A DNA stretch of 64,000 nucleotides from Eucommia ulmoides (taxonomy: Eukaryota; Streptophyta; Magnoliopsida; Garryales; Eucommiaceae): the NCBI GenBank assembly GCA_016647705.1, contig CM028336.1, forward strand, positions 5,638,048 through 5,702,047. The letters are read 5' to 3'. The notes under the pieces are model-generated. The model saw nothing but the letters and a program-made list of their open reading frames with translations, was not told the origin of the DNA and did no database searches. The position numbers were made by a program, and so were the translations under genes. This document shows positions 1 through 61,496 of this stretch, in pieces. Numbering within the stretch: the stretch's first letter is position 1; every line of letters starts with the position of its first letter.

Positions 1-63
1 CCTCTTTCAAAGCAATCCCCATTTGAAGCTCTGCTAAAGTCTCATCAGCGGGCTGATCTTTCA

Positions 64-430
64 CCTAGCATATGTGCAAGCATTAACGTTAACCCAGCCA
101 CACACACACACACACCCCAAAAACAACTAACTGATTGCGTTAACATTAAAGTTAAATTGCTTGCGTTAACGTTAAACATAAGCACAAAAACGAACAACTA
201 AGTTCGCTAACGCTAACGCAAATAACAATCCAGCCACAAACATCTGCTTTTTTGTTTATTGCGTTAACGTTAACGCATTTATTATTTGCGTTAACATTAA
301 CGCACTTATTATTTGCGTTAACGTTAACGCGATTATTTATGCATTAACGTTAACGCAAATAATAAGTGCGTTAACGTTAACGCTAACGCAATAACAATCT
401 AGCCATACATAACTTATTTTGCTTTAACAT
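64..430. repeat. Array of GTTAACGTTAAC-type palindromes, block 1
   Basis: About nine copies or near-copies of GCGTTAACGTTAACGC stand at irregular spacing (for example near 84, 138, 172, 260, 288, 315, 343 and 369). The core GTTAACGTTAAC is its own reverse complement. Variants include single-base changes such as GTTAACATTAAC. The copies are separated by ordinary AT-rich sequence, so this is not a simple tandem satellite. The block lies beyond the last visible exon of the gene fragment at 534-1,466. Confidence 0.8.
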
Positions 431-533
431 TATTGAAATAACTAATTGCGTTAACCATAACGCAAAATACCACATACCATGTTTTACGTACTTGCATCAA
501 CGTTAAAAGCACAACATGTTTTTTTTTGTTTAC

Positions 534-1466
534 CTTATCAGCTGGCAGTAGCCCGAGGGGAATGCCTCCCAAGTTGGAAGAAAACGTGGTGAGGCACCAC
601 TGCTCCAAACACGGCACACTATGCTCTCTACCCTCGGTGTGGTCAACCAACGTTGTGTGCTCGCACGACCAATACTGTAAGTAAAAATTGTAATATATCA
701 AGTAGGGTCCACAAACAACGCTTGTAAATATTTGAAAAACATTTTCACAATGAGTATGTGTATACCTGGAGAGCAAGCACGCATCCCGTGACCGACCGGG
801 GTTCCATATATGATTTCTTGAGGCTGGTTTCGAGATCTGTGAATATCGCAGCTGTCCAGTTGTAATTTTCCATGTCTTCAATCGTTTCAACATAGCGAAC
901 CAACGATTTCGGGACCTGCTGCCCAGTTGTTGCAAAGAAGCACGTGGTCATCAAGTGTAGAATAACCATGCTCACAACATCCTGTATTGTTTCATTGTCT
1001 GTGGCGTTCACATTCGCTTGCATTTGTGATCTCAAATATGCAACACTAAACCCGCGGTCTGCGAATGTCAGTTTGGACATGAAAGGAGAGTCGAATTTTG
1101 TGTAGCGACTCAAAACAATGGGTTCTTTGCCCGTTGCTATCCCGAATATAAGCTGGATGTCAAGCGGGGTTATCCGGATGAGCCTGCCTCCTATCCTAAC
1201 CCCCCCCCCCCCCCGCGTACAGGGTTGTAGCATCGGATGATCATTTCAATGAGATCATCATTTTTGTAGACGTTTTTGAGCGTCACTCGCTGCTCATATA
1301 ATGTCTCGAATATTTTTGCGAATGGGGTCCTGGCCAGCGGTGTCTTATGTTGATCTTTGAGTTTGCACTCTTTCAGCAATTCATACGTCTGCTTAAGGTT
1401 GGAGCGATAAAGGAATGTCTGCTGACTTGAGCTTTCCTTTTTCGGTTTCTTAAGGAGTTTTACTAC
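534..1466 (-). pseudogene. Transposon-borne plant gene fragment (plant mobile domain / Ulp1-associated type)
   Basis: The minus strand reads as exons. One runs from about 1,466 to 1,215 (peptide contains QTFLYRSNLKQTYELL and DDLIEMIIRCYNP). After a run of 15 C (1,200-1,214) it continues to 766 (GGRLIRITPLDIQLIFGIA, then YNWTAAIFTDLE and GCVLALQ). A 91-bp GT-AG intron follows (765-675). A further exon covers 674-534 (YWSCEHTTLVDHTEGREH, then PCLEQW) and ends at a GT donor. The order 'YNW...GC-LLQYW-CEHT...W' recalls plant proteins linked to Ulp1-protease or plant-mobile-domain transposons; that family call is from memory and unproven. The reading frame differs on the two sides of the C run, so the gene is broken there or the run length is misread. 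More exons are expected below position 1. Confidence 0.5.
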
Positions 1467-1504
1467 AAGAACGACAGGGAAACACAGTTAATGCACATTA
1501 CAAG

Positions 1505-2165
1505 CCACACGTTAACGTTAATGCAGTCATCCATATCCCTCGTTACGTAACAAAAACAGGCAACTATTTTGCTTTAACGTTAATGCACAACAATAAATGC
1601 GTTAACGTTAACGCATTTTTTTCAAAAACCCAAAATGTCGTACCAGATTTGAGAAAAATACCGACAAGTAACGCAAAACAGTCCCTTCCCTTGTTACAAG
1701 CAAACGTCTATGTGCGTTAACATTAACGCAATTACATCCACGCGTTAACGTTAACACAAAACGCAACACATAGTGGTGTACCAGACAGACAAACAAACAA
1801 ACCTAAATCTAAACACACGACTAACTTTAATATTAACGTTAAAGCAGTCATCCATATCACTCGGTACGTAACAAAAACAAGCAACTATTTTGCTTCAACG
1901 TTAACGCACCACAATAAATGCGTTAATGTCTACGCATTTTTCACAAAAACTAAAACGTCGTACCAGATTTGAGAAAAATACCGACGAGTAACGCAAAAGG
2001 GTCCCCCCCCTTTTTTACAGACAAATGTCTATCTGCGTTAACATTAACGCAATTACATCAACGCGTTAACGTTAATGCAATCACAATACGTAGTGGTGTA
2101 CCAGACAAATAAACAAACCTAAATCTAAACATACGACTCACATTAACGTTAACGTTAATGCAAAC
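1505..2165. repeat. Array of GTTAACGTTAAC-type palindromes, block 2
   Basis: About a dozen further copies of the palindrome lie upstream of the minus-strand gene fragment. Two segments (about 1,500-1,800 and 1,840-2,125) are diverged direct repeats of each other: both contain the series CGTAACAAAAAC, 'TTTTGCTT-AACGTTAA', GTCGTACCAGATTTGAG and GTGGTGTACCAGACA. This shows local duplication of roughly 320 bp units as well as motif reiteration. One more copy of the motif lies at about 2,667. Confidence 0.75.
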
Positions 2166-3010
2166 ATTCTTTTTAAATTCCTTCTTTTCGGAGGCAAAAC
2201 AACATGTGGGTCAACATCACAAAACCACGAAACAAAACACGACGTACGATTTCAAAAAAAACGTAAAATCAAAACAGGGGAACAAAGCATGTCGGAGTCG
2301 AGTAAAATAGACGAACATCATCGTCTCGTTTTATGATTTTGATTTCTAAAACGCCGTCGCCGAACAAAAGTGTATCAATTTTAGGGTTTCATATACCGTC
2401 GGGACTGAGGGTTCTTCGTTTCTGTGTGGAAGATGAGGGGTCGCGTTCAAAATTCTCTATTATCTGAAGACGGCTGGGCGATTTTGGATTATTAGTTTAA
2501 GGGTTTTAGGGTTTCGGAGTTTTTAAGCGTGGAGAGAATAGATAGCGTGGAGAGAATAGAGAGCGTTTTGGCGGTCTTTTGTATGCGATCGTGCAGATAG
2601 TGGAACGTGTAGCAGGACATATCGGAATCAGAATGGACACGGTAACAATGCTGACTGCTAACAGTGCGTTAACGTTAATGCAATCCGTTATTGTTAACAG
2701 AAAAAAAAAAAAAAAAAAATACCATTGCAAAGATATCGGCGAGCTCTTTAATTTGATCACATTTTTATATGATTTGATTTAGAAATCAGGTATATAAAAG
2801 CGGATTACATATTGGGGGGGGGTTTATTTAGTGCCCTGTTCATATTGTAGTGGTTTGTATCCTCAGAATGGCGTGTTTTGTAAATAAACTGTAAAAGGAA
2901 GGGCAAAATAGAAGGATTTTTTCCTAAAGAATTGATGTGGTCTGAAAACTTAATACACATTGTACCAGGGTCTAAATTGTGAAGTAACCTCTAAGAGAGG
3001 ATTAAAAAAT

Positions 3011-4139
3011 AAAATACCCTTTATTCTATCGTAGAACTAATTAATGCATTATAAAAAATAATTTTTTAAAAATAAAAAGTGTAGTATAATCCCAAAGGAT
3101 CTTTGCCAAGTACTCCAATGACAATGATAGTCAAATGCAATAATTTCTCACTTTAGACCCACCAAAAGAAACTAATTAAAAAACAAAAATCTACCCATAA
3201 AAATTAAACTAATTAAAAAAAGAAAGAAAGAAAGATAAATGGGTGAAGGATGTGTAAATGGTGTATATAATAAAAAGTAAATAACATTTTAGTCCTTATA
3301 ATTTACACAAATTACATTTTCTTCAACACGTAATCTCCTTGTGTTTACTTTTTGTAAACTAATAACCAACGACCGAACTGCTTGATGCCTATGGGAGAAT
3401 TGAGTCGCCCCCCCCCCCCCCCCTCGAATTTTTGAAAAAATTCACTATTACCTATATATTTTTAAGAAAAATCAATTAAAACTTCTTAAAATTTTACATA
3501 AGTCTTATAAACGTTCTTAAAAAAATCACTATTACCCCTATACTTTCAGAAAAAAAAAAAAAAAAAAATCTTAAAATTTTACGTAAGTCCCCTTGAATTT
3601 TAAAAATATCTAATAAATTTCCTAAAAAAATTAACCTCCTCCACTACCCCCAATCAATTTTGTAGATCTGCCTCTACTGATAACGCGTGCATAGCCACTT
3701 ACGAAAGATAAGCACAAGAGAATTTATGTGCTCACAAAAAAAAAAGGAAGGGGAAATAAGTATAATTCGCATAAAATTATAGGGGATAAAGTGTAATTTA
3801 ACCTAAAAAAAAATATTTTTTTACTAATTTTAAAAGTGTTCTATGACATATTTATTCTCTAAAATTATATTGAATTATTTATTTTTTAAAAAAATATAAA
3901 AAAAATATTTTTCCAAAATTATAATTGAGTTTTTAATAATATATGCCAAAAATACCCTTTTAACTTTTCTTTTGTTATAATAAATAGATGTGATTATTGG
4001 CAAGCAAAGTGTTATGTGAGTCATCAAAATCCCATTGAAAGCCACAAACTAGAGACTCAAATGATTAGCTTAATATTCTACTACTAATTATAAAATTAGA
4101 AATTATTATTTCCACTCCAAAAAACTCTACCTACACTCC

Positions 4140-4224
<85 letters not shown>

Positions 4225-4320
4225 ATTTTGTTTTATGAATCATTATTTTTAACTATTTTTAATAATAATTATTATCATCTTCTCTCTCAAAAGAACACTA
4301 TAATTAAAGTTCGCTTTGTA
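3011..4320. other. AT-rich intergenic DNA, no gene seen
   Basis: No ORF with family resemblance and no paired ends were found. Notable simple sequence: a run of 16 C at 3,408-3,423, several A runs, and a pure TA microsatellite at 4,142-4,220. Two adjoining pieces (about 3,425-3,545 and 3,525-3,625) are diverged direct repeats sharing 'TTTTTGAAAAAATTCACTATTACC' type text. Confidence 0.6.
4142..4220. repeat. (TA)n microsatellite
   Basis: An uninterrupted run of about 79 bp of alternating T and A. Confidence 0.95.
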
Positions 4321-5539
4321 TATCGGTCGGTCGGGTGCGAAGGGATCGTCGGAGATGTAATCCGACGACCGAACCGTCTCATATGACGGTCGGATCGGGT
4401 TTTACCCTACAGCGAAGAGCACCACCACCACATCCCGCCATCACTAGTCCTTCTCCCTTTCTCCCTTTCTCTCCCTCTCTACTCTCATCTCCTCGCCCTC
4501 TCTTTAAATATTTTTTGAATCATCTCCATTAAATTAATTGAATATGATTTAATTAATTTGAATGGTATAAGTGTTATTTAATATTAATTAATAGAATAAC
4601 GTTGACTTTTATCCTTTGACCATTAAAGTTAAAGAAAAACTTAACCGTTGCACTTAAGTATTAGGCAACAATTTGATCTAACTAGTGCAAAATAAAATTA
4701 ATCTAATATTGAAATTGTAAATTCCTTGTCAGTGTTCCAGAAAAGATAAATTTCTAAAAAAATAAAAAGTGCACAACAATAAAATCCACATAAAGGAACT
4801 TGAGTAAAATCCCAATTTGAATTTTTCTTGTCTGTTAGAAAATGTTACCCATTAGAAAACATTGATAAGATTGCGTTTGGGTAAGAGATTTGATAAATTC
4901 AAACAATTTTTTAAATAAAGGGATTTCAAAATCCTGAATTTTGAAATCCGTTCATTTCATAAATCCCTTATTTGGATAATAGTTTGAGCTGAAACATTTG
5001 AATATGTTATTTCAACAAATTATGGAAACAAAACAGAACATAACAGAATTTATGGAAACAAAAACAGAAACTCATCGCCAAACGCCATACCAAACCCAAA
5101 TCCAAAAACAAATTCAACAAATTCAACCAAATCCAAGAACAAATTCAACCAAATCAAAGAAGAAGCGGATCGTTCGTTCGAACAAGAAAAACCCAATCGT
5201 TTGTGTTCGTGTTCACAGTCGCCGTTCGAAAATGTGTTCGCAATCGCTGTTCGTGTTCGAAATCGCAATCGCTCGCCGTACTAAATAGGGTTCGAAAACG
5301 TGTTCGCAATTGACGTTCGTGTTCGTGTTCAACATCGAAATCGATTTCGAACCCTAAATAGGGTTCGATTTCGATTTCGAAATTGAAATCAATTTGGAAA
5401 AACGAAATCGAACCTAAAACGAACACCAACATAAGAACGAATAAGAGACGAAGCAGCAGAAGAATGAAGAAGATGCATAATTATTGAACTCTATTTTGTT
5501 TGAATATGCGTGTTGACGGCACAATTTTTTTGAATATGC
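4321..5539. other. Intergenic; small GC-richer patches, no supported gene
   Basis: 4,321-4,500 is GC-richer with CGGTCGG repeats and C+T runs. 4,880-4,985 holds a partial MITE-like inverted stretch: TTGCGTTTGGGTAAG on one side, then complementary AAATCCCT/AGGGATTT text. 5,160-5,440 repeats GTTCGTGTTCG and GATTTCGA motifs, including the palindrome-rich TTCGAACCCTAAATAGGGTTCGA area. The short ORFs on both strands come from these repeats, and I see no conserved domain. Confidence 0.5.
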
Positions 5540-6560
5540 ACAATTTATTAGGTTTTTGAATCATCTAAACAATGGGTACAAAAATTGACTTTTGAGAATA
5601 TTATACAATATTACATTCAACATGTTAGACAGTTTTACATTCAACACGTACTATGATTTTGAATTGTGGCATTTTTTAGAAAGTTTTACACATTGTTTTT
5701 GAATATTTGGCAAATTGATTCAATCAAATTACATTCAATAGTATCCAAAAAACTAAGTTTTGAGAACTGTAGACGATGTTACATTCAACACACATATTGT
5801 TTTTGAATATTTTTACAAAATCAGTCAGTGTTACATTCAACACGTACTTTGAAAGTGTTACATTCAACAAACACTAAAAAACAGTAGTTTTCAATTGTTG
5901 AATATCTAAAAATTGATTTTTTTAAAATATTAGACAATGTTATTAAATACGATTAGATAGTGTTATATTCAACACGAATTTTTAAATTATGAATTTTGGG
6001 AACATTAGGAAGAGTCAAATTCAATACATACACTGAAAAAAATTGACGGGTCAAAAAAAAGTTGTGAAGGTTTCAAGGAGGGAAGTGTAAAAAAAAGTAA
6101 AAGTTTGAAACTAAAGTTAAAATAAGGGGCGGAATATGTAAACAATGCTATTGTATATCTCCGTGTAACCGTTACCCTTTCAAATGCGACTGTGTTCCGT
6201 GAACGATGAAACGACGAAGGGCGACGGCGAACGATGAAGGACGAATGGCGAACGGCGAAAGCGAAAGGTAAGACTAATGGTAAGAATCATTTTTTTGCCG
6301 TTCGATTTCAGTTTTGAGAGTGTTTCAATTTTTTATTTCATTTGCAAAGATCGATTTTTAGGGTTTCAGGGACGAATGGCGACGGCAAATCAGTGATAGA
6401 TGAGTGCGCTGCTGCGGGAATGTATATGGAATGAGGACTGAAACATTTAATGGGAGTATTTTGGTCAGAGAAATATAATGGGAGTTATTGGTGCAAAAAA
6501 AAATCATTGGGTTGGATTGGTAGATGAAAACGTGAAATGGGAACTACCGGTACTCGCCTT
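5540..6560. repeat. Element remnant with TTACATTCAACA motif array
   Basis: About eight copies of TTACATTCAACA (or close) lie between 5,610 and 6,020. A GC-richer coding-like patch follows (about 6,190-6,400; GACGAAGGGCGACGGCGAAC). The end is rich in GGGAGTTATTGGTGCAAAA (about 6,480). The same three parts (motif, GC-rich patch, 'GGAC/GTTAATTGGTGCAA' end) occur in the element at 62,519-63,491, so these are probably relatives. I could not place the left terminus. Confidence 0.5.
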
Positions 6561-6594
6561 TTTTTTTTTATTGGGTATATGTTAGAGACCTCTC

Positions 6595-7332
6595 TTGTCT
6601 TTTTTTCAAACACTACTACTTCCTTTATTAATTAAAAATAAATAATTTTTTATTATAATACCAATTTTACCCTTGACTATTTAAAAAATAATTAAATAAT
6701 AAAAAATTAAAATACATAAATAACCATTTAATTTATATATATTCATCACCATCTCTTACCATTGCACCCACCGCCGCCACCACCTCCTACCGCCGCCGCC
6801 TCCTCCCACCGTTGCCACCACCACCCTCCGCCACCTCCCACCGCCACTACCCCCCCCCTCTCATTTAAAAAAAATATATATATTTTTTTAACCATTTCAT
6901 TAAAAAAAAAAAAAAAAAAAAAAACAACTTTTTCATTAACCCTTTTCTCTCTCTCTCTCCGTTGGTGGCGGGGGTTGGCGGTGGCCGCGATGGGCGGCGG
7001 CGGCGGTGGGTAGTGGTGGCGACGATGGGTGGTGACGGGGGAGTTAGGTGGTGGGTGGTGGGAGTTGGGTGGTGGCGGTGGTGGGAGGTGGCGCAGAGTG
7101 GAGGGTGATGGCGATGGTAGGAGGTGGTGGGAGTTGGGTGGTGGCGGTGGCGGTGGCAGTGGGAGTTGCGTGGTGGTGAGAGATAAATATAATTATTTAA
7201 AAAATTAAGGGTAAAAAATATAATTTTAAAATATAAGGGTGTTAATGAATTTTTTAAAAAAAAAATAACCTAAGGACAATTTTGTCCAAAGGGAGGTAAG
7301 TGGTGTTTGAGCAAAAAGATAGAGAAGTTCTC
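6595..7332. mobile_element. Short TIR element with a GC-rich CCG/GGTGG core
   Basis: The left end (6,595) reads GAGACCTCTCTTGTC... CAAACACTACTACTTCC. The reverse complement of the right end (7,332) reads GAGAACTTCTCTATC... CAAACACCACTTACCTCC. These are imperfect TIRs of about 45 bp. The inside is low-complexity: CCGCCACC-type repeats (6,762-6,850), an A run, then a GGTGGTGG-rich stretch (6,960-7,180). No target duplication is visible. A similar end occurs at about 29,375-29,440 inside a CHX intron. Proline/glycine-rich ORFs here are by-products of the repeats. Confidence 0.45.
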
Positions 7333-8282
7333 TGGTATTTGCACATGAGAAGTATCTGGTATAGTGTAAAATGATAGGAGAGGTCAATGACATATACTCT
7401 TCTTTTATTTAGTTTCTTTTTTCCTTTCCCCTTCATCCTCCCACCACCATTTTCTTTGGTGACCTCCGTTGCCGACCACAATTTTCCGGCGATGTTTTTG
7501 ATATTTTTCTCTCTTTTAGCCTGTTTCCTCCCATTCCTTATCCCCCCTCCTCCACCTCCTCCCACCCTTGGTTCCCACAAGTGAGGAGACAAGATTCGGC
7601 TCACCAGATTTGCGCAAATCCGACGAGGAGACACCACGCACAGGTTTGGCAGGGGAAGAGAGGGGGGAGAGGGGGGGGGGGGGGGAGAGAGAGAGAGAGA
7701 GAGAAGAGGAAGAAGTTATGAGAAGAGATGATAAGAAAAGAAGAAGAAGACGGTGGCAGGAGGCGGCGACGGCGGTGAGGAGTTGGCAGGAGGGTGAGAG
7801 AGAGAGAGAGAGAGTAAAATAAAATAAAATAAAATAAAAGTAAAAAAATTAATTATAAAAAGGATAAAATAATAATTGTCTTTATTTATTTATTTATTTT
7901 TGTTAAAAGATAAGAAAAAATAGGTAATTGACCATTATTTTTTTCGACAAGAGATCTCTATAGAACTCGTCTTAGGGATGTCAGTGACAATTTTTTTTTT
8001 GGCCAAAAAACATTTAATTCCCCTCTATGTCAAAAATTATTAAAATATTAATTGTAATAATAATTTATATTTAACAATTAAAAAATATATTAAATAATTA
8101 AAAAATAAAATACACAAATCTCCCTTTAAATTCTACATTTACCGCCATCTATCTTTTTATAATAATACCCCTATTTAAGAAAGAGTTTTTTATTATATAG
8201 TCCCCCATAGAGAGATTATTGAGAAAAAAATCTTTTTCATATATTTGATTAGAATTCAGACCAAATAGTACAATCAATTAAG
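7333..8282. other. Low-complexity and AT-rich DNA, no supported gene
   Basis: This stretch contains a C+T-rich patch, a run of 15 G at 7,671-7,685, GA and AAAAT microsatellite runs (7,686-7,840) and AT-rich sequence. 7,375-7,960 may be another diverged TIR element ('GAGAGGTCAATGAC' against 'TAATTGACCATTATT...GAGATCTC'), but the ends are too weak to call. Confidence 0.4.
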
Positions 8283-9128
8283 TTTTTAGTCCTCCAAAAA
8301 AACAAAAAGAACACTAAAAAGACACATGTACCCCTGAACAAACTCTCTCTCTTATTTATATTAATTATCACTCACACACACTCTCTCTCTCACTCTAAGC
8401 TCACTCTCTCTCCCACTCACTCTCTAAAGTTGAGCGTTAACACAACTAAATATGTTGAGCGTTAACATAACTAAATGTATTGGGTTTGTAATTGCGTTAA
8501 CGTTAACACAATTAAATTAAGTGTGCTAGATTGTAATTGTGTTAACGTTAACGCAATAAAATTAAATGTGTTAGGTTGTAATCGCGTTAACGTTAACGCA
8601 ATTAAATTAATGTGTTGGGTTGTATTTGCATTAACATTAATGCAACTAACATTAACGTTAATGCATACAAAATAAATAATGAAAGAGACGATAATATGAA
8701 ACACAAAAAAAAAAAAATGCATTAACGTTAACACACAAAAAAAATATAATAAATATTCAAGAGAAAAAATATACAATACGTCTGGTGATAAAATGAGTTA
8801 ACGTTAATGTAATGCATAAACAGACAGATTATGAGATGATGCGTTAACAAAAAAAAAAATGGATTTAATAACGTTAATGTCAATCCCAATGTAATATTGT
8901 AATATAGGTAAGTGGTATTTACTTGAATAAGTTACATTAACGTTAACATCCTTTGTTGTTCAAATTTGTCTTGTTGTATAATGACAAAATGACAGACTTG
9001 TAAATAAATGTTAACATGGAGGGCCATAATGAAGGACTTTTTTCTAAAAATTTGGTGGGGTCTGAAAACTTAATTGTTCATGTCAGTAGGTCTTTTTTCT
9101 CTATTGGGTTTCTATAGAGGACTAAAAA
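8283..9128. mobile_element. Non-autonomous TIR element packed with GTTAACGTTAAC
   Basis: The ends are TTTTTAGTCCTCC at 8,283 and, on the other strand, TTTTTTAGTCCTCTA at 9,128. Between them are CT-rich DNA, then about 14 copies or near-copies of GTTAACGTTAAC (8,430-8,950). The last 150 bp match the right end of the element at 1-3,010. It has no gene, so it looks like a deletion derivative of that larger element that kept the motif array. Translation of the array gives VNVNA-type peptides, which are artefacts. Confidence 0.6.
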
Positions 9129-9599
9129 ATTAATTACCCAATTATTTATTGTGACAATTTTTTATGGGACACTTTTTAATTATTTTAATCTTAATGTGTC
9201 CCAAAATTATAAATGTTAGGACACATTTAGTGTTCTTAAAAGTGAATTTGTTGTAGTGATCATTTGTTCATATTTATGGATTGCATATTATGAAGCGAGA
9301 TTATGGACATAATCGTTAGTTTCCGGGAAATTTAAAAAAATAAAAATAAAAATAGACTATCTATCCCAATTTTTTTAGAATAAAATTATGGCAATAGCAA
9401 TCTGGAAACAAAAACACTAAACAAATGGCACCTCAGGCATTGTTTATGTTCCTAGAATTCTATTTCAGTTCCCAGCTTTCTTAGAAACAGAAATGGAATA
9501 TGGGAACAAAAAATATGTCTCGGTTCTGCTCTCAATTTTTTTTTTAACTACTTATTTACGCCAACTTAGTTATGCCCTCAAAAAATTTGTCCCAAATTT
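9129..9599. other. AT-rich spacer with a MITE-like fragment
   Basis: There is no gene. 9,395-9,510 contains 'AAACAAAAACACTAAACAAATGGCACCT' and 'TGGGAACAAAAAATATG' text that resembles the ends and interior of the MITE family at 17,179-17,583. It is probably an old fragment. Confidence 0.4.
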
Positions 9600-10643: not shown

Positions 10644-10974
10644 GGGGGGAGGGCGGTTTGAGTTGTTTTTTTAGCTGCATTTGTTAAGATCATTTAGCTG
10701 CATTTCATAAGATCATTGCGAAGCTTGGTGAGGTGAATTCACTGGTTTCTTTGCATGTCTTTAATACTACTTTTAGACCCACATATTATACGATTCTAGT
10801 AAAAAAATTATATATATTTATTTGAATGTTAGACATACTTACAATTGATATTTTAATTTTATAATTCATACATTTTAGGAAAATATAGAAAAAAAAATAA
10901 AATTGAATATTAAAATAATACAAATAAAGTTAAAACCAAAAAATTTTTGTTAATGTTAATTTTTAAAACTATTA

Positions 10975-23745: not shown

Positions 23746-26700
23746 CTCCCTCTCAAGTTGGTGCATATAGATCTCGGATGCCCAACTTGTCAAGTGAGTT
23801 GTAGAAACTTCTGTTACTTACAGCTTTCGTAAGTATATCTGCTAATTGGTCTTCAGATTTAACAAATGAGAATCGAATTATCTTGACCTCAAGATTTTGT
23901 TTGATGAAGTATCAGTCTACTTCCACGTGTTTGGTTCGATCGTGCTGGACCGGATTATGAGAAATGTCAATTGCAGTCTTATTATCACAGAATAGGTCCA
24001 TCTCGTAGTCAGGAGCAAAACCAATCTCAGTTAATAGTCTTTGAATCCATAGAAGTTCACAAAGGCCCTTAGCCATCCCATAAAACTCGGCTTCAGCACT
24101 TGATAATGCTACCACCTTTTGCTTTTTTACTTCTCCATGTAACTAGGTTGCCTCCAACAAATATGAAATAGCCTGAGGTGGATTTTCTATCAGAGATGTT
24201 TCCTGCCCAATCAGCATCTGTGTAACCTTCCACCCATAGATGATTATTTTTCGTAAACATAAGTCCTTTTCCGGGGAAAGACTTTAGGTATCGGAGAATC
24301 CAAATTACCGCACTCATATGATCTTCACTTGGACAGTGCATGAATTGACTTACCACAATCACTGCATATGCGATGTCAGGTCGCGTATGATAGAGATAAA
24401 TAAGTTTTCCAACTATTCTCTGATACCTTCCTTTGTTAGTTGGCACTTGTCCTGGGTATTCAATTCCAAGCTTGTGATTTTGGATTATTGGTGTATCTGT
24501 AGTCTTACAATCCAGTAATCCAGCTTCTGATAATAAATCTAGGATATATTTTCGTTGGGAAAGGAATATGCCTTGTTTTGACTTGGCAACTTCAATTCCC
24601 AAAAAATATTTGAGTTCTCCTAGACTTTTCATCTCAAAATCTATTGCCAGTTGCTCTTGAAGTCTTGCTATTTCCTTTGGGTCATCTCCTGTAATGATCA
24701 TATCGTCTACATAGATTATCAAAGTTGTTATTTTATCCTAGTAATGCTTTAGGAATAGCGTATGGTCTAAGTTGCTTTGTTGAGAACCATATTTATTCAT
24801 TGTCGAGTTCAAGCGCCCAAATCACGCTCTAGGAGATTGTTTTAAACCATACAAAGTTCGTTGTAACTTGCACACAATCTTAGATTTAGAGTTTGCAGTA
24901 AATCTTGGAGGGATATCCATGTAGATTTTTTCTTCAAGATCTCCATGAAGAAATGTATTTTTAACGTCAAACTAGTGCAATGGCCAATCAAGATTTGCTA
25001 CAAGAGATAGTAGAACCCTGACAGTACTCAACTTGGCCATAGGTGAGAATGTTTCTTGATAGTCTACGCCACAGGTTTGTGTATAGCCATTTGCCACCAG
25101 TCTTGTTTTGTACTGTTCAACTGATCCATCAACTTTGTACTTGATAGAGAATACCCACTTCCACCCCACTGTTTTTTTCCCTTCTAGTTGGGGAACAAGA
25201 GTCCATGTCTCATTTTTAAGCAATACTTCCATTTCTTCCTTCATAGCTTTGACCCACCTAGGGTCTTCTATAGCCCCTTCAACATTTGTGGGAATATGAT
25301 ATGAGGAAAGTTCATTCACAAAATTTTTGAGGGGTTCAGAGAACTTCTTTGTAGACACATAATTGGCAATTGGATATCTCGATCTGTGGTTCTCCAGTTC
25401 TGGAGAATATCTGTTCGCGGTTTGCCCTGATTGTGCCTAAAATGTAATTCATAACCAACAGGAGTATCCACGTTAGTAGAAATGGTAGGAGAGCTAGGAG
25501 AGCTTACCTCGGTAATATTCTCAGGAGATGGAACGTTGGATACTGGAGAGTAGGGGGGTACTGCTACTTCAGCTTCAAGAGATGTTGGCTCTAGAGCTGG
25601 AGTTGGCTCTTCAATGGTTATATCAGTTTCTAGAGATGTCAGCACTAGATCTGGAGTCGGCTCCTCAATGGTCAATTGAGGAGCAGTCGATGTTGTCTCA
25701 ACGTCCTTGAACCAGTCGAAAGTCAACCAATTCAACTCTTCTTCTTCTCGTGTCTCCCCCTGAAAAGAAGAATTGGATGCGGCATAAGAGTAGAAAGTGT
25801 CAGATTCAAGGAATGTGACATCCATAGTCACATAGGTGTGCCGAGTAGTCGGGTCATAGTATCAGTACCCTTTTTGGTGTACAGTATATCCCAAAAAAAG
25901 ACAAACGAATAGCACATAGATCAAGTTTCGTGCGTTGGTTCTTGCGGAGGTGAACAAACGCAACACAACCAAAGACACGAGACGGAAGCATCAATACTGT
26001 GGGTAGTGACACATAGGTTGACAAGGCCTGTACTGAAGTCTTGAACCTAAGAACTTTTGAAGGCATGCGGTTAATGAGATGGACAACCGTGGCAACAGCA
26101 TCGGCCCAGTGGTGGCTTGGTACGTGAGCTCCAAGTAATAGAGCTTGAGCAGTTTCGAGGATGTGATGATTCTTGCGCTTGGATACATCATTTTGTTGCG
26201 GAGTCTGGGAACATGAGGTCTCATGGATTAGTCCATGGTGTTGGAAATAACCACGGAGCTCTTGATTCACATACTCTCCACCATTATCAGATCTAAGAAT
26301 GCAAATCTTAGCATTAAACTGAGTTTGAATCATTGTATGAAATGATTGAAACACCCGAGAAACTTCATTTTTATGTTTCAACTGATAAAGCCAAGTCATT
26401 CGAGTATAATCATCAATGAATATCACAAACCAGCGGACACCAGATAGAGTAGATTTTGGGGAAAGACCCTACACGTTAGAGTGAATCAGAATAAAAGGAA
26501 CATCACTTTTATTCATACTCAATAGGTAAGTGGCTCGATGACTTTTAGCCAGAGTGTAAGTCTCACATTTGAAATCTACATTTGACAAGCCTGAAAATAA
26601 ATCAGAAAACACATATTGAAGATATCCAAATGACGGATGGCCTAACCGACGGCGCCACAGAAAAATTTGTTCTACTCTAAGGTTGCTTGGGCGGTGCATG

Positions 26701-28989: not shown

Positions 28990-29636
28990 TTATTTATTAA
29001 ATCCGCCTATCCCATGCCAGTTTTCTTCTTATTCTTCTTTTCATTCTCCTTCTTCCTTTTTTTTTCTCCAGCACCACGCATTGTTAGAGCCATATAGATT
29101 TGGCTACACGCGCTCGGATCTATAAAGATCTATTGTGGCAGCACAAGAGAAGAAGAGGAAGAAAAAGGAGAAGGAATAAAAAAAACGGAAAAAGAGAGTG
29201 AGCGAAAAAAAATTGGTGTTACGGTGCTGGAGGTGACAACTAGCTGGACATATAGAAGATGAGGCAAGGAAAAAAATATATTAAAAAAAAAAAAGTTAAA
29301 AATTAATTAATTATTTTTTATTGTTAAGGGTAAAATTATATATCATTATAATTAAAATTTCAATAATATTTACTGAGAGGAGAACTAAATGGTGTTTGAC
29401 CAAATTAATAAGAAGTTGGCCTTATTTCGCAAATAAAATATTCTTTTTGGGGAAATTATTTAAAAAAAAAAAAAAAAAAAAGGACTCTTTGGGCCTAGTA
29501 AGTAAAAGTTCATAAGTTGGAAATAATTGGCTTTGAAGCTATTCATAAAAACAGTCATAGTTTTTAGGAGTAAAATGAAGGACATAAACAAGTTAGGGGT
29601 GATAATTGTAATTATAGGAAACAATGGAAACAATAC
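28990..29636. other. CHX copy 1 intron 3, remaining part
   Basis: 29,010-29,230 matches 63,800-64,000 in copy 2 (GATCTATTGTG, then a purine-rich GAAGAAGAGG stretch). 29,375-29,440 resembles the end of the TIR element at 6,595-7,332. Nothing else is recognised. Confidence 0.6.
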
Positions 29637-30064
29637 CTGGTTTGTGAACAAGTGGAAATACAAAGCAAATTGGACATTGCCCTGTGTACTCATGATCACA
29701 GACAGCGCGGCCGCATCCCTCGTCGGCATCTTGCACAGAAACGCTGAAAACAGAGTCGACGAGAATCTAATCACGACGGAGAGGGTGACGAGGCCGCACA
29801 ACAGCTGCGTGAAGCCCATGTCGTAGACGGCTACCAGATCGATTTTCATGCCGCAGAAGGTCACAAGCAGCGGCATGCAGATGCCGGTAATCACCGTCTC
29901 TAGCTTTTCCACCAGAGTAGAGCCCAACGGAGGTCCGTCCGGCACGCAGAGACCGAAAAGCAAAGGGCCTATTTGGTAAGAAAACCCAATGGTTCTGCCA
30001 GTGATTGCAACAAGAATCACCGTGAAGGCCACTAAACTGATGTAATGTTTATTCACAGGCTTTC
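29637..30064 (-). pseudogene. CHX copy 1, exon 3 (membrane domain)
   Basis: It is open across its length and bounded by an AG acceptor (GTGAACAG before 30,064) and a GT donor (CCAG|GTATTG at 29,637/29,636). The peptide has several hydrophobic helices and the motifs YQIGPLLFGLCVPDGPPLGS, VTFCGMKIDL and MSTQGNVQFALYFH, diagnostic of plant CHX exchangers. This exon shows no break. Confidence 0.9.
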
Positions 30065-30427
30065 CTGTTCACAATTTTGATTTCATAATGGCTAGTTAAA
30101 GAAACAAATCTTATTTATTTTTATTTTCAACAGATGAAATTTCCTTGGATTGAAAATGGATTTAAAAATAAAAATTATTAGACTTTTATAGAGATACATG
30201 TCAATAAACTAAATTTCTAAATTTATTTAAATCAAAGAATTTAAAATGACTTCATGCTAATAACTTAATTATCATTTAATTAACAATTCTAATGTCTAGT
30301 CTTCTTAATAATAAAAATAAATAAAAAATATATGAGTTAATTTTATGTCACATTTCTGTGGTAGATCCCTTATTTTATCTTAAAAAAAGTCTCATACTCA
30401 ATTGTTACTTGTGTTTTAAACTCGCGC

Positions 30428-30472
<45 letters not shown>

Positions 30473-30890
30473 AAGAAAAAAGTAGAAGGGCCAATACGTG
30501 AGTCCCATGCAGGGGTACTGAACGAAAACATCTATTATATGTATCTAACTTGTGTGTAACATATTTGTTAGGTGTAACAAAAATTTCACAAAATACATGT
30601 AATACAGTTAAATATAATTTAAGTACATGTAACTAATATTACATAAGTAATGTAATATAGTTACACATAATATATAATTATTAAATTGTAACTAATTTTA
30701 GTTATATGTAACTAATATTCACTCGAATACTGATTTATTTACTAAGCTCTCTCTACGCTCTACATACAATGTATGAGCACACGTGAGACAAATACGGAAC
30801 AGAGAACTAAATGGGACGCATAACATGTTACGTCCTTTATTTAGGACTATTGACCAATTATCCCTTATAAATATCTTTTACCTTGAACAA

Positions 30891-30932
<42 letters not shown>

Positions 30933-31304
30933 CTGAATAACCAAAAATATATAGGGATTTTTTAGAGCGCTCTCAAAATTTTAAAAATATATTTTTCAGG
31001 ACTACCTAAAATTCATGCAAAAAATACAAAAAAAAAAAAATTGTCATTCTAAAATTCTGTATAATCTTAATTACAAGTTCCAAACGAAGAAGGTGGAGGC
31101 AAAAAACAAAGATGATGGTGACACATGAAGATGAAGAAGAGGACGAGCGGATGCTGCGGTGACAGGGAAACAAGCAAAGGAGATGACAATGAGTATACGC
31201 TGCCACAGCGGAGATAACTAGCTATGACAAAAGAAACTGAAATAATTTGTTGAGGAAAACTTTTAAAATGTAACTTATAATCTCAAATGTTTTAAAAGAA
31301 ATAC
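30065..31304. other. CHX copy 1 intron 2
   Basis: AT-rich, with a long A run (about 30,430-30,470) and a long T run (about 30,893-30,932). 30,550-30,720 repeats TGTAACTAAT/TTACA-type text. No gene is seen. Confidence 0.6.
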
Positions 31305-31873
31305 CTTCGGGAGTTTGTTGTACAATCCAATGTAAAAAGGGTCGCGTGGACCACATGACAACAATGACTGATAGGGTAAGAGCATAAGGCTTTGCCGCCA
31401 AAGTAGTGGACCACCCAGCTAACGCCATTCTCATGTTCAATATCGCCATCCACGTGACGTTACTCAATAAATCACATATTAGTGTTGCCGCCATTGCCAG
31501 TCGCCCTAACTCTGTATTTGTAATCTTCAGGTCCATCAGCAGCGATGAAATCACCAGAAAAGTGTTCATTGTCAAATACTCCGATGATAGATCTTACCGT
31601 CGGAAGCCGGTAACTTGGTAGATAGTCCAAAGGCATTCCTCCCAGGAATACCAAGTGGGGGACCACCACCACCACAACGCCGATGATCCATGCCCTTATT
31701 CCGGCTTTGAATACCTTACTCGGATCCATCTTTACTCCGGCCAAAAATATAAAGAAAATGAATCCAATCACCGACAACCCAAGCACGAACACTTTTCCTT
31801 CTTTCGGGAACAGTGCATTACGCATAGTCGGGCTAACCCGGCCTAGAATGGTTGGTCCGAGAATTACTCCAGT
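31305..31873 (-). pseudogene. CHX copy 1, exon 2 (membrane domain)
   Basis: It starts after CCAG with TGVILGPTILGRVSP, continues FIFFIFLAGVKMDPSKVF and a Val-rich helix, then changes frame near 31,560 and goes on ISSLLMDLKITNTELGRLAM, AATLICDLLSNVTW to WIVQQTPEG, ending at a GT donor (31,304-31,303). The order is normal for CHX. The change of frame is a real break unless it is a base-call error. Confidence 0.88.
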
Positions 31874-32632
31874 CTGGTTCCAAAAAGGGAAAACAGAAAA
31901 ACATTAGGGACAACATATATCCATCTATATGTTTTTTTTATGATTAGTACATATTAGGTAAATGTTTTTCAGTTTGGGTCTCAAAGGATCAATTGTATAG
32001 TATTTTAATATGTCTTTTTTATCTTAAAATTTTAACAATTAAAAAAAATACAGTATTTTCACCAAAATGGTCCCAGAACTGATTCTCTCACCTAAATAAT
32101 TTAACATGTTTTTTTTCCTTTTTAATCAAGGTTTGACTCTACTATAGTAGGAACACTTCAGATATTAAATTTTCAATTTAATCCTGAATACACCGCATCA
32201 ATGTAGAGGAGTGCGCTCTTAACATCGTCCGGAGAAGTGATTATTTGAGGTGCGCGTAAGCTATAATGAGAATATGCTCCATTTTTTGGAGTTCATGCTA
32301 TATGACGTCTTAAGAGATTGCTGATATAATTTAGTATTTTTTGTAGTATATACATGAGGTGTGGGGGAGAGAGAACAATCGAAAAAGGATTATGTTCGTG
32401 TCAGCAGCAGCAGTGTTGCTAGAGGCTGCAATGCCAACCGTAACCAGACTATACACTGTGACCAACGTTGCTCTAGGGAGGATAGAGAGCGCAAGATGAA
32501 GAAACATATGATGAATCATGGAAAGGTTGGGTTTTGTTTATGACTATATTGATATACGAAAAAAATATACGATCATAGGAATGACTAGGGTTTTCCACTC
32601 TTGGGTATATGGTTTGATTTTGGACAAGTCTT

Positions 32633-32858: not shown

Positions 32859-35082
32859 TCCCTCCTCAAACTCAAGGCGGTAAATGGAAGGTGAATTTGA
32901 GTTTAGAAACCAAAGAGTGAAAGCGTTCGGATAGATGGGCCTTGATGAAAATATCTGCTGTCTGATCGCTGAATTGACAGATTGTAGATAGACCGTATTT
33001 TAGAGAATGTGATGACGGATGAACTTGCAATCAGTCTCGATATGTTTTGTATGCTCGTGGAATACATCATTGTGAGCGATCTGAATAGCACTCTTGTTGT
33101 CACAGTGTAGGGTAGTGGCAGTAGGAGAAGAGATGCCCATGTCAGCAAGGAGCCATCGAAACCAGAGAAGTTCTTGAGTTGTATCAGCCATAGTATGATA
33201 TTTAGCGTCAGTACTGGAGCGAGCAACTACAGATTTTTTCTTACTATGCCAGGAAATAAGAGAATTGCTAAAAAAGAAACAGTAACTAATGGTTGAGCGT
33301 CTATTGGTGGGGTCTTTCGCCCAATCGGTATCAGAATAAGCTTGTAAGACGGGAGCAGACTGAGATGAGAAATGGAGCCCATGAAATAATGTACCCTTGA
33401 CATACTGAAGAATACGAAGAACAGCCAAGTAATGGGTGGTCCGAGGAGCGGACAAAAACTGGTTGACCTGATGAACGGCATAAGCAATGTCAGGGTGAGT
33501 AACAGTGAGGTATACAAGACTTTCAACCAGTTGGCGATATAGAGTGGCTTCTTGAAGAGGTGAACCATCAAGTGGGGTAAGTCTGACATTCGGCTCAAGA
33601 GGAGTGGTGGCAGTGGTTGAGTCAGTGATCCTAACTTTGGAAAAAAGATCCGAGGCATATTTGGCCTGAGAAAGAAAATATCCATCAAAACCCGATGAGA
33701 CTTCAAGGCCAAGAAAATAGGTGAGCATGCCAAGGTCTTTCATCTCGAATTGGCTGCTTAGAAACTTTTTGAGTTCAGAAATACCGCTTATATCATCTCC
33801 AGCGATAACCATATCATCCATGTACAGTAAAAGAAGGATAATACCATTGGCCGTATGACGAATAAATAGATCTTAATCATGAGCACTTGGTGTGAACCCA
33901 AACTGATGAATAATAGTGCTGAATTTTGCAAACCAGGCCCGTGGAGCTTGTTTCAAACCATATAGAGCACGACGAAGGCGGCAAACTTGATTTCAAGGAG
34001 CAGCCAGGACAGGACGGGTATGCATATATACTTTCTCAAGAAGATCTCCATTAAGAAATGTATTTTGACATCCATTTGAAAAATAGTCTATTTTCGAATT
34101 GCAGCGATGGCCAGAAGTGTACGACCAAATGTTAGCCTTGCCACAGGAGAAAATGTTTTTTCATAGTCAATGCCATATTCCTGAGCAAATCCCTTGGCAA
34201 CAAGTCAGACTTTATATCGTTCAACAGAACCATCAGAAAGTGTCTTGATCTTAAACACCCATTTGCACCCAATGGGAGTTTTTCTAGGGGGCAAATCAAT
34301 AATATCCCAGGTATGAGTTTTGGCGAGGGCCTGAAGTTCGTCGTCTATTGCTTTCTGCCAAAGAGGATTAGTACTAGCCTCCTTATAGGATTGAGGCTCA
34401 TGCAGATGGAGTATAGTGGAAAAACAATGGAAATCAGAAAGATAATGTGGAGGATGAGTTACCCTAGTGGACCGGTGAGGGTGATCTGGGGCGTAAGTGT
34501 CAACGGAAGGCGGCACAAGATCATCAACCACAGGAGAAGTCTCCGGCATGGTTGCTGGAGTTGGAAGGGTGAGATCAGCTAGTGGTTCTAGAGTAGGTTC
34601 AGCTGATGGTTCTGGGATGGACTCAGCATAAGGTGCAGGGCTAGGCTCAACTAGTGGTGCTGGGGTGGACTCAATAGTAATTAGAACAGGATCATCTAGA
34701 AATAACTTAATGGATGGATTAGTGAAAAATCTAGAGGTGGAGAGGGTTGACAAGTCAAATGACCGTAAGGAAGAAAACATTCGATGTTCCCAAAAAATGA
34801 CATGTCGCGAAATATGAAGGGTTTTAGAAATGGGGTCCTAGTACTGATACCTTTTATGTTTAATGCCATCTATATAATAAATCAACTCGTTTATATTCAG
34901 GACCGTTGGATGTCTCTGGATATTCGTAGCCGTTAGATTATTTTTATATACACAATATACACACACATATATACACACATATATATTTTATATTATATTA
35001 TATTATATAATATAGCAAGAGAAAATACATTTCAATTTATCAAAAAAAAAATAAAAATGGCAGAGAGCCTTACCATCAAGCA

Positions 35083-35499: not shown

Positions 35500-38400
35500 C
35501 AGATTTCTGTTTGGTTTCTCGCTTCAGACAATGGCTCCTCGCAAGGTAGCATTTGGTTTCGGTTTCTATTTCTGTTTCTGTTTCTGTTTATGAATTGTTT
35601 CTGTTTCTATTTCTGTTTCTGTTTCAGTCAAGGGCTTGGACGGTGAAGGTCGCCAATGGTCGTATTTGGATGGTCGTCAGTCGCCCAAAGCTTCATCATC
35701 TCAGACAATCGCTCCTCGCAAGGTAGCATTTGGTTTCGATTTCTGTTTCTGTTTATGAATTGTTTCTGTTTCTGTTTCTGTTTCAGTCAAGGGCTTTGTG
35801 GTGAAGGTCGCCAACGGTCGTATTTGGATGGTCGTCAGCAGCCCAAAGCTTCATCATCTCCATTCATCTATTCACCCCTAATCATAGGTACTCTCCTCTC
35901 TCCATTCATCTGTTTCTGTTTTTGTTCCTGTTTTTTGTTTCTGTTCATGTTCTGTTTGGTTGCAACAAGGTTGTCGTTTGATCGTAGGCGTGGTGCATTT
36001 TCGTACTGTTTTTGGTGCGCATGTGTTAGATTGAGACACACATTGAATTTGTACAAATATATGGGAACAGAAACGCTAAACAAATGGAACCTATCGAATC
36101 CCAGTTTTTGTTTCTGTTCATGTTTTTGTTTTTGTTCCTGTTTTTTGTTTCTGTTTCTGTTCGCCATTTATATAGATGTATATGTTCTGTTTGAGGTTAG
36201 TTCTTAACTTTGGTGAAGTGTAGCATCATGGATATTTAGGTGGTGTTTGGTTAGTGTTTCTGCTTTTTTGTTTCTACTTCCAATAAATTGGGATGGAAAT
36301 TCTATTTCCGTTTTGGTTACGGGAATAGAAACATGTTTAGTAATGATCATTGTCTTGAAAATGTTTCTTTTAACTTATGAGAACATAAACGAGAAACACG
36401 TTTGGTTGCAACATTTATTTTTTGTTTTGTTTTTTTCCCTTTAAATGTATGGTGACCGGTGAGTGGTTGCAATATTTGTATATGTTCTGTTTCTGTGTTT
36501 CTGTTTGTCGTTTCTGTTTTCGTTTCCGTTTCTGTTTATGTTTCTGTTTGCAGTTTCTGTTTTTTGTTTTTGTTTCTGTTTTGTTGTTGTTTCTCACCCC
36601 CAAGTAGGCAATGTTTGGCTGCAATGAATTCGCCATTTATATAGATGTATATGTTCTGTTTCTGTGTTTCTGTTTGCCGTTTCTGTTTCTGTTTCCGTTT
36701 TCGTTTATGTTTCTGTTTCTGTTTTCCATTTCTGTTTCTGTTTTTTGTTTTTGTTTCTATTTTGTTGCTGTTTCTCACCCCCAAGTAGGCAGTGTTTGGC
36801 TGCAATGAATTGGACCTATGGAATTGAATTTAAAGAAACAAAAACCTGTTTAAATTGATAAGAAAAAATCAAAAAAAGAGAAAAATATAAAACAGCCAAA
36901 CGCGGCATAACGGGGAAATAAGACTTGCCATTGAATATGCAGAGTAAGCAAAATCGGACAATAATAAGTGAAAAAAAAATTAGATTTAAATTTATCTGAA
37001 TAGCAACAAATGGGAATTAATGTTATTTCATTAGGTGGCATTTGATTAGCGTTTTCTGTTCCCAAATTTTTGTTTCTGTTCGCAGAAATTTGTTCTAAAA
37101 AATCTGGTAATAGAACAAACAAAAATATGGGAACAGAAACGCTAAACAAATAGAACCTATCGAAGCCCTGTTTTTGTTTCTGTTCATGTTTTTGTTTTTG
37201 TTCCTGTTTTTTGTTTCTATTTTCGTTCACCATTTATATAGATGTATATGTTCTGTTTGAGGTTAGTTCTTAACTTTGATTAGTGTTTCTGCTTTTCTGT
37301 TTTTACTTCCAATAAATTGGGATGAAAATTCTATTTCCGTTTTGGTTACCGGAATAGAAACATGTTTAGTAATGATCATTGTCCTGAAAATGTTTCTTTT
37401 AACTTATAAGAACATAAACGAGAAACACGTTTGGTTGCGACATTTGTTTTTTGTTTTCTTTTCCCCTTTAAATGTATGGTAACCGGTGAGTGGTTGCAAT
37501 ATTTGTATATGTTCTATTTCTGTTTTTCTGTTTGCCGTTTCTGTTTCCGTTTTCGTTTCTGTTTCTGTTTGCCATTTCTATTTCTATTTTTTGTTTTTGT
37601 TTCTGTTTTGTTGCTATTTCTCACCCCCAAGTAGGCAGTGTTTGGCTGCAATGAATTCGCCATTTATATAGATGTATATGTTCTGTTTCTGTGTTTCTGT
37701 TTGCCGTTTCTGTTTCTGTTTCCGTTTTCGTTTCTGTTTCTGTATCTGTTTCTGTTTTCCATTTCTGTTTCTGTTTTTTGTTTTTGTTTCTATTTTGTTG
37801 CTGTTTCTCACCCCCAAGTAGGCAGTGTTTGGCTGCAATGAATTGGACCTATGGAATTGAATTTAAAGAAACAAAAACCTGTTTAAATTGATAAGAAAAA
37901 ATCAAAAAAAGAGAAAAATATAAAACAACCAAACGCGGCATAACAAGGAAATAAGACTTGCCATTGAATATGCGGAATAAGCAAAATCGGACAATAATAA
38001 GTGAAAAAAAAATTAGATTTAAATTTATCTGAATAGCAACAAATGGGAATTAATGTTATTTCATTAGGTGGCATTTGATTAGCATTTTCTGTTCCCAAAT
38101 TTTTGTTTCTGTTCGCAGAAATTTGTTCTAAAAAATCTGGTAATAGAACAAACAAAAATATGGGAACAGAAACGCTAAACAAATGGAACCTATCGAAGCC
38201 CTGTTTTTGTTTTTGTTCATGTTTTTGTTTTTGTTCCTGTTTTTTGTTTCTATTTTCGTTCACCATTTATATATATGTATATGTTCTGTTTGAGGTTAGT
38301 TCTTAACTTTGATTAGTGTTTCTGCTTTTCTGTTTTTACTTCCAATAAATTGGGATGAAAATTCTATTTCCGTTTTGGTTACGGGAATAGAAACATGTTT

Positions 38401-60324: not shown

Positions 60325-61496
60325 TCATTTCTTCACCAATTGTTGTTGAACTACCAACACGGAAACCGGTCTCCTGATTTCTTCTGATGCCAATATATCC
60401 ACGATCGGACCCAACTCTTGCAATTCGCTCCACTCTGTTAGACCTGTCAGTAGCGGAGAATCCTCCTGGTGGTGCCGCCCTACGATGATGAGATCATATT
60501 CTTCCTTCAACTCATTAACTATCAATGCCGTCTCCGGCCCATCTCTTACTTTTTCCTCCTTATAATTTAGGTTCCGTTGGTTCATACACATGAGTCTTAA
60601 ATCTTTCAAGACCTCGATGTCGAGAATGGTGTCCCACTGGTTAGATCCGGCATCTTCCAAAGCTACTAGACGGAAAACCGTCAGCTGGATTGATGTAATG
60701 GATCTTGACATTCGTTTTGCGTACGCCAAGGCCTCCCGGTCGTCATTGCCCCCTAAGAAAATGACGGCAACATTGTATTGTGAGTTGGACGGACTAGCGG
60801 ATTGTTGGGCCCGAATTTTGCTGCGATCGATGAGAATTCCGACAGAACAAGGGGCCATTTCAAGCACTTGTTGGTTTACCTGTTTAGAAAATCCAATATA
60901 TAAATTAAGTCACTATTATATATTTTTAATTGGTTTGGGTTAATTAGGTCCACCTCAACTAATCACCTCTCAAAATAATATTAAGGGTGTGTACTCTCTT
61001 ACATCGATCCGATGCATTTAGAATTAGATTCAAATTTTAATTTTTGAAATGTTTTCCAAAATAGTCGAATCCTGATTTACAAGAAAAAAACACTTCACTT
61101 TGCCAAACGATTCTAACATTTAATGGGTAATTAAATCACTATTTGGTAGCATTTTTTAATGTCTAAATAATAAATAACATTTTTTTGTCCCAGTAATAAC
61201 GAAACTATTCTTAAAAAAAAAAAAAAATTAAAAATCTGTCACTTTTCTTCTCTATGTTTTCACAACTAAAAAGGATAAAAACACGATCACTATCACTATT
61301 AGAAAAAGATTAGGGTATCGATTAAAAAATCATATATGGTTTTTTTTTTCTTGGATTCAACTTAATTTGAACTTGATAATTTAATTTTTTTCCCCAATAT
61401 AATTCGGAATTAAATGATAAAAAAAAGATAAATAAAGAAAATTTATTAGTTTTTATCCAGGAAAAAAATTATTAAAATAGGAACATATGTTGAGTA

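Follow-up and report, generated by a model that had tools for sequence, protein, structure and literature searches.

We analyzed a 64-kb stretch of Eucommia ulmoides DNA (hereafter the window) in which a first-pass annotation had noted two elements rich in a 12-nucleotide palindrome. Both loci belong to one family of Mutator-like elements (MULEs), whose full copies carry a Mutator transposase gene, a second gene antisense to it with PMD/DUF1985-like and Ulp1 regions, and dense copies of the palindrome lying almost entirely outside coding DNA. In our view, the second protein probably binds the palindrome arrays and counters silencing of the family, a design that would be like that of the VANDAL and KIU systems.

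Copies of the 12-mer GTTAACGTTAAC in the window were counted with up to two mismatches, overlapping hits included. The total of 32 copies (8 exact, 15 with one mismatch, and 9 with two) comprised 24 in 1–3,010, seven in 8,283–9,128, and one at 10,949, whereas shuffles that kept dinucleotide composition gave expectations of 0.36 and 0.20 for the two elements, from 200 shuffles each, and of 1.8 for 9,129–64,000 (five shuffles). With three mismatches allowed, 37 non-overlapping copies were found in the two elements and 26 matches elsewhere too. The annotated figure of three dozen copies is thus close to the mark, 31 of the 32 stricter copies lie in the two elements, and the single copy in the ~60 kb of window outside them shows that the 12-mer is not equally common in unrelated DNA. 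The exact 10-mer core TTAACGTTAA occurred 22 times in the window, every time inside the two elements, compared with six copies of the runner-up palindromic 10-mer after complexity filtering. Position counts gave TGCRTTAACGTTAAYGCA as the wider palindromic consensus around this core, the motif being a CpG-centered palindrome. The irregular spacing that had been taken to exclude a satellite holds overall but not for local tandem arrays with units of 27, 45, and 25 bp or for a 321-bp duplication; the sequences of these units differ. In a pairwise comparison of 16 representative contexts (120 pairs), core identity was 96%, a figure inflated because the copies were picked by motif, while the far flanks (26 + 26 bp) of the same contexts were 31.7% identical against a null of 31.3%, a comparison that the choice by motif does not inflate. 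A scan of IMG/VR for the 18-mer returned no matches, and a full-text literature search with GTTAACGTTAAC and TTAACGTTAA gave no apparent transposon paper among the matches listed, the main study of Mu-like anti-silencing evolution being outside its coverage.

The genome searched comprised 947 Mb in 391 contigs, and element ends were sought at 11 loci of the second gene, the window's own and ten more. Both ends were found at eight of these loci, all eight with a perfect 9-bp duplication, although some duplications are A/T runs; at the other three, no left end was found within the stretch examined. Besides the window's large element, the seven further complete copies measured 10,686–11,032 bp and held 50–73 motif matches each, with 0–1 in ~2 kb of flank per copy. 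Summed over the eight complete copies, 497 motif matches fell in 90,600 bp of element versus 2 in ~28,400 bp of flank, confirming the enrichment of the motif inside family elements. A full-length member with a transposase, for which the annotation had advised a search, was also found (for example L075; relatives measure 10.7–11.0 kb): the plus strand of L075 encodes a Mutator transposase with DBD_Tnp_Mut (1.2e-14), MULE (4.2e-9), Transposase_mut (1.6e-7), and SWIM (1.4e-9) matches, all above Pfam cut-offs. Since the copies have 9-bp duplications and the DBD_Tnp_Mut, MULE, and SWIM domains, the family is assigned to the Mutator superfamily, in which duplications of 8–11 bp, usually 9, are typical, rather than to CACTA or hAT. 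Neither CACTA/G termini with 3-bp duplications nor 8-bp duplications with a hAT transposase were found at these copies; instead, the ends read GAGTTTTTTATT.../...TTACCC, and the terminal inverted repeat is imperfect (16 of 22 matches, hand-counted on the end sequences). Together, the eight complete copies and 40 scored small copies bear out the annotated picture of an element family with an internal reiterated motif and a small non-autonomous member. Exact TTAACGTTAACGC occurred 8,262 times on both strands of the genome versus 79 times for its reversed control, a fully palindromic site counting twice. Among 100 TTAACGTTAACGC matches listed, which cover part of one contig, 88 were distinct, and 72 of the 88 had a neighbor within 1 kb versus ~1.7% at random.

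The annotated element at 1–3,010 is real, but the window holds only its right-hand part, and the true span runs from about window position -11,794 to 3,019. Its left and right ends read GAGTTTTTTATTAAATAGTCCC and ...AAATACCC, respectively, and an identical 9-bp sequence, TTTATTCTA, stands on both outer sides as a perfect target duplication; the presence of TTTATTCTA at both -11,794 and 3,019 ruled out 1–3,010 as a separate element. Within its 14,814 bp there were 75 motif matches, versus one in 13,134 bp outside. The large element has a single transposase region and a single Ulp1 region, but the PMD-like exon, E3, and the right end each occur twice, and roughly two thirds of the middle region of the second gene is duplicated. 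Its two right ends lie 4,656 bp apart (window -1657 to -1637, in L009, and 2997–3019). These doubled parts point to a partial tandem duplication inside the large element, around which the outer 9-bp duplication is intact. The element matches the transposase pieces of L075 at 83–89%.

The small element spans 8,183–9,139 according to its genomic copies, not 8,283–9,128, with GAG-TTTTTTATTATATAGTCC at the left end and ...GGACTAAAAAATTAATTACCC at the right. The two elements had been held to share termini ending at TTTTTAGTCCTC. Their ends are indeed related, the right ends of the two window loci aligning at 79% over 77 bp and 87.5% over 24 bp, but TTTTTAGTCCTC lies near the ends rather than at the terminus and was rejected as the true end, since genomic homology extends outward to GAGTTTTTTATT and TTACCC. 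From 1,547 first-look candidates in the genome, 40 copies of the small element were scored, itself included, at 91–100% identity. Of 28 small copies, each scored at its best of 30 offsets, 21 had perfect 9-bp duplications, four matched at 8/9, and three at 4–5/9; some of the perfect ones are A or T runs and weigh less, and the figures stand without a swapped-flank control. The window's own small copy has no duplication (5/9 at the best offset). A duplication search at the previously assigned ends of this copy gave 8/9 at best, which 65 of 200 random flank pairs equaled, and was uninformative. A candidate third element near 52,106, where TTTTTAGTCCTC occurs with one mismatch, was also rejected, having no motif within two mismatches and no partner end within one mismatch. 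Counted over 8283–9128, the small element is strongly depleted of CpG outside its motifs (3 CG vs 43 TG and 31 CA).

In the window copy of the second gene, GT..AG borders are in phase between exons E2, E3, and E4, and the E4 frame is open leftward to about window position -805; a frame shift lies between E1 and E2, and relatives such as L069/L070 and L075/L076 have a 244-residue frame open through the point of this C-run frameshift. Joined E2–E4 matched PMD (PF10536; E=1.1e-5, 25.2 bits, below the cut-off of 34.9) and, over the same region, DUF1985 (PF09331; E=0.0048, 17.3 bits, below the cut-off of 35.1), and the piece from the internal duplicate gave no DUF1985 match up to E 0.1. Ulp1 Peptidase_C48 matched two pieces of the large element (E 2.2e-4, 21.6 bits against a cut-off of 20.7; and E 0.02, 15.2 bits, below the cut-off). 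These Ulp1 pieces lie on the same strand as the PMD-like exons and downstream of them, L075 and L085 having counterparts at the corresponding place, and we infer that PMD-like exons and Ulp1 pieces form one transcript. On the minus strand of L075, a PMD/DUF1985-like region (E 0.00073 and 0.0016) is followed by a 481-codon open frame and then by the Ulp1-matching place; this middle frame had no significant family match (HTH_70 0.022, bZIP 0.048). A genome search with the E2 protein scored 150 loci of 1,872 first-look candidates, itself included, at 71–100% identity, some of them carrying stops. A single-sequence structure prediction of the PMD-like exon (mean pLDDT 38.5) was left unused, and 11 weak matches from a PDB sequence search (best DsbD, E 0.016) were judged to be chance.

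The motif keeps away from both coding DNA and the element termini. None of the 24 motif matches overlaps the window exons, for which the chance under uniform independent placement is 0.0002, tandem copies not being independent, and in L075 only one of 57 matches, at an open-frame edge, falls in mapped coding DNA (4,997 of 10,737 bp). In all eight complete copies, the terminal segments (the first ~550 bp and the last ~320–360 bp) contain no motif within two mismatches. Clusters occur at ~0.55–1.6 kb, which in some copies is within or close to the transposase gene, ~4–5.5 kb before the Ulp1 pieces, between second-gene exons, and upstream of the second gene; the first array of the window occupies the E3/E4 intron of that gene. 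We also compared two diverged relatives (71% and 73% protein identity in E2), in which 6 and 7 motifs within two mismatches lie upstream of the second gene. When the motifs were masked, the upstream non-coding DNA gave no match to the window region in one of the two (C9) and a 96-bp block (74%) plus 14 bp in the other (C5). Since motifs are kept upstream while the masked non-coding DNA scarcely aligns or has no match, these two relatives indicate that the motif outlives its surrounding context, while individual arrays come and go. Among the 28 small copies, 2.4% of bases at non-CpG core sites differ from the majority, versus 5.1% elsewhere. In the diverged relative L092, the standard motif is accompanied by variants such as GTTAACGTGAAC, which perhaps mark a subfamily whose site is drifting.

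The annotation had described this dense internal pattern as unfamiliar, but such a pattern has been described for Arabidopsis VANDAL elements, whose VANC proteins bind arrays of a short non-coding motif (PMC5735166). VANC21 has been found to bind YAGTATTAY both in vivo and in vitro, the bound sites lying in introns, between genes, and in terminal non-coding DNA; VANDAL21 alone has this motif at high density, mostly outside coding sequence, and the arrays of the motif, including one in the VANC intron, evolve by tandem repeats (PMC5735166). VANC21 strips DNA methylation from its own family (PMC5735166, PMC10398659). As these sources describe them, VANDAL21 (Hiun)/VANC21 and VANDAL6/VANC6 resemble the present family in being Mutator-like with a transposase and an extra gene and in having short or degenerate terminal repeats (PMC5735166, PMC10398659), and the VANDAL/VANC system further shares a dense short motif, mainly non-coding (introns and intergenic DNA), in arrays that vary in tandem (PMC5735166). 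The present family differs in that its outermost few hundred bases are motif-free and in that its second protein scores PMD above DUF1985, both weakly. KIU is described as a VANC-like gene with a transduplicated Ulp1, carried by MULEs without terminal inverted repeats; strong conservation among eudicots and recognition of motifs of its own kind are ascribed to it (PMC13317346). Compared by description, the second gene of the present family has this make-up, including the Ulp1 (C48) domain. MULEs in which PMD forms an additional open frame, in many cases on the strand opposite the transposase, and which have 9-bp duplications, have also been reported and match the present family in these three features (PMC6446971), and an anti-silencing role of MULE-captured PMD has been offered as speculation (PMC5418596). 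The descriptions of PMD-bearing MULEs in these two sources mention no reiterated motif (PMC6446971, PMC5418596), whereas the present family has one, and PMC5418596 describes PMD-C fused to MULE transposases (grasses, Amborella), whereas the PMD region here belongs to a separate antisense gene.

Since the VANC system is the closest precedent, we regard the second protein as the probable anti-silencing motif binder. It would bind the palindrome TGCRTTAACGTTAAYGCA arrayed in introns and intergenic DNA, and the many clustered sites would make its recruitment specific to the family. Recruitment would in turn remove silencing marks from the element, and the transposase would then be expressed again. 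Because the small element keeps related ends and arrays, it may be de-silenced and mobilized in trans. The proposed role would resemble that of En/Spm TnpA, an element protein linked to demethylation (PMC10398659), although the present family is Mutator rather than CACTA and has motif-free ends. The family would work in the manner of VANDAL/KIU-VANC, a likeness of design that does not imply placement in the VANDAL clade.

Several observations weigh against assigning this role to the second protein. The present motif is palindromic and CpG-centered, whereas the YAGTATTAY motifs of VANC21 share one orientation (PMC5735166), and the open frames listed included no vanB-like gene, no search aimed at vanB having been made. 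Across the pieces tested, DUF1985 scored E 0.0016–0.0072 and PMD E 1.1e-5 to 0.017, all under the curated Pfam cut-offs; PMD outscores DUF1985, whereas described VANC proteins have DUF1985 (and DUF287), and the E2–E4 region has further weak matches to DUF7745 and UTP20_C. The large element's own transposase is incomplete: the MULE-domain stretch of L075 has no match there (L009, ~window -9251 to -8247), and its transposase piece gave only SWIM at E 0.02, below the cut-off. Since the MULE-domain stretch is missing, this copy is probably not autonomous. In an alignment judged by eye, the motifs in the 321-bp duplication were not visibly better preserved than the remaining sequence, and when only A/T sites of the 28 small copies were counted, the core differed at 1.7% versus 2.4% (P=0.018), a modest effect. 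The masked alignment of the two diverged relatives stands without a nearby-copy control, and the 750 bp beside E2 in these relatives, the expected place of the intron array, held 0 and 1 motifs, so that this array is not conserved.

CACTA and hAT elements have known reiterated sub-terminal sites, En/Spm (CACTA) having a short motif of this kind, and the first-pass annotation had taken the palindrome for a site bound by the transposase that the element itself encodes. On this reading, the transposase would use the site for end synapsis or to repress its own promoter. The family does encode a transposase with a DNA-binding domain, and MURA of MuDR and TnpA of Spm are reported to lower methylation (PMC10398659). 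We nevertheless consider this reading unlikely because the ends of all eight complete copies are motif-free and one array sits in an intron of the second gene. Motif clusters also lie thousands of bases from the ends, motifs are nearly all outside coding DNA, and 50–75 matches per element seem far above what synapsis would need. It is less likely still that the motif is a host transcription factor site and the arrays are transcriptional enhancers. The arrays do flank and interrupt the second gene, and the core, which contains TAAC/GTTA, resembles MYB-type sites, but a host site should appear in host promoters too, whereas the motif is rare in the window outside the elements and clustered among the genome matches listed. 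Replication slippage or duplication that left repeats recognized by no protein, which the tandem units (27, 45, 25, and 321 bp) and the unremarkable preservation of motifs in the 321-bp duplication would suit, is very improbable, given that different array contexts share only the palindrome, that motifs avoid coding DNA, and that upstream motifs persist in the two relatives whose non-coding DNA has largely ceased to align.

Within the proposal that the second protein binds the arrays, a more speculative and doubtful extension is that a PMD/DUF1985–Ulp1 dimer reads the core CpG directly. Binding would then be sensitive to methylation and would form a self-reinforcing on/off switch for the family, built on tens of sites in each element and thousands across the genome, and the role of the small elements would be that of a sponge or of hitchhikers. 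In the small element, the central CpG of the motif is mostly retained (10 of 12), and retention of central versus outer CpG differs (10:2 vs 4:15, P=0.001); in the large element, no difference was seen (17:6 vs 30:12). Preferential retention of the central CpG is only a hint, as numbers are small and copies are not independent.

The features of the two elements and of the neighboring sequence are listed in Table 1.

Table 1. Features in and beside the window (window positions; negative positions lie to its left)
Feature	Position	Strand	Remarks
Right-hand 3.0 kb of the 14,814-bp Mutator-like element	1..3019	.	Left end at ~window -11,794
Exon E4 of the PMD/DUF1985-like gene	1..64	-	Acceptor TAG|GTG at 65/64, open frame in phase; runs left into middle-region exon
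Intron E3/E4, first motif array	65..533	-	GT..AG borders; 27-bp tandem units at 259-383
Exon E3	534..674	-	Bounded by splice sites, frame in phase; 91.5% match in both L075 and L085
Exon E2, PMD/DUF1985-like region	766..1194	-	Profile matches of joined E2-E4
Part of exon E1	1195..1462	-	C run near 1201-1214 shifts frame in window copy
Non-coding region upstream of E1, second motif cluster	1463..2698	.	Includes 321-bp tandem duplication 1512-1832 / 1833-2153
Motif-free right terminal segment	2699..3019	.	Last motif with up to 2 mismatches ends at 2698; right end aligns with small element
Small non-autonomous member of high-copy family, 957 bp	8183..9139	.	Ends fixed from 28 copies
Motif arrays of small element	8430..8947	.	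25-bp and 45-bp tandem units and dispersed copies
Sole motif copy (up to 2 mismatches) outside both elements	10949..10960	+	Chance expectation 1.8 for 9,129-64,000
Copia-type retrotransposon pieces (RVT_2, rve)	24096-26468, 33003-33872, 48226-48777	-	
Na_H_Exchanger pieces and CHX17_C piece	29463-31903, 60328-60909	-	Apparently related cation/H+ antiporter genes
~1.03-kb unit, three direct copies	36420-38784		92% and 73% to first copy (300 bp compared); AAACAGAAAC-type repeats abundant nearby
Helitron pieces	44753-47131	+	Helitron_like_N 1.9e-43, PIF1 helicase 1.5e-74
Leucine-rich-repeat receptor-like gene pieces, apparently tandem	~-19947 to -14497 (L010)		Judged from translations

If the second protein acts as proposed, sequence-specific anti-silencing by transposons would extend to a very abundant family whose target is of a different type, palindromic and CpG-centered. 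The family offers a specific motif with which the speculation on an anti-silencing role of PMD (PMC5418596) can be tested, and a short palindrome tagging a single family is a possible handle for targeted epigenome editing. Should the core CpG indeed be read directly, the family would represent a version of the VANC system that reads CpG, and the PMD carried by MULEs would gain an anti-silencing role that has so far only been suggested.

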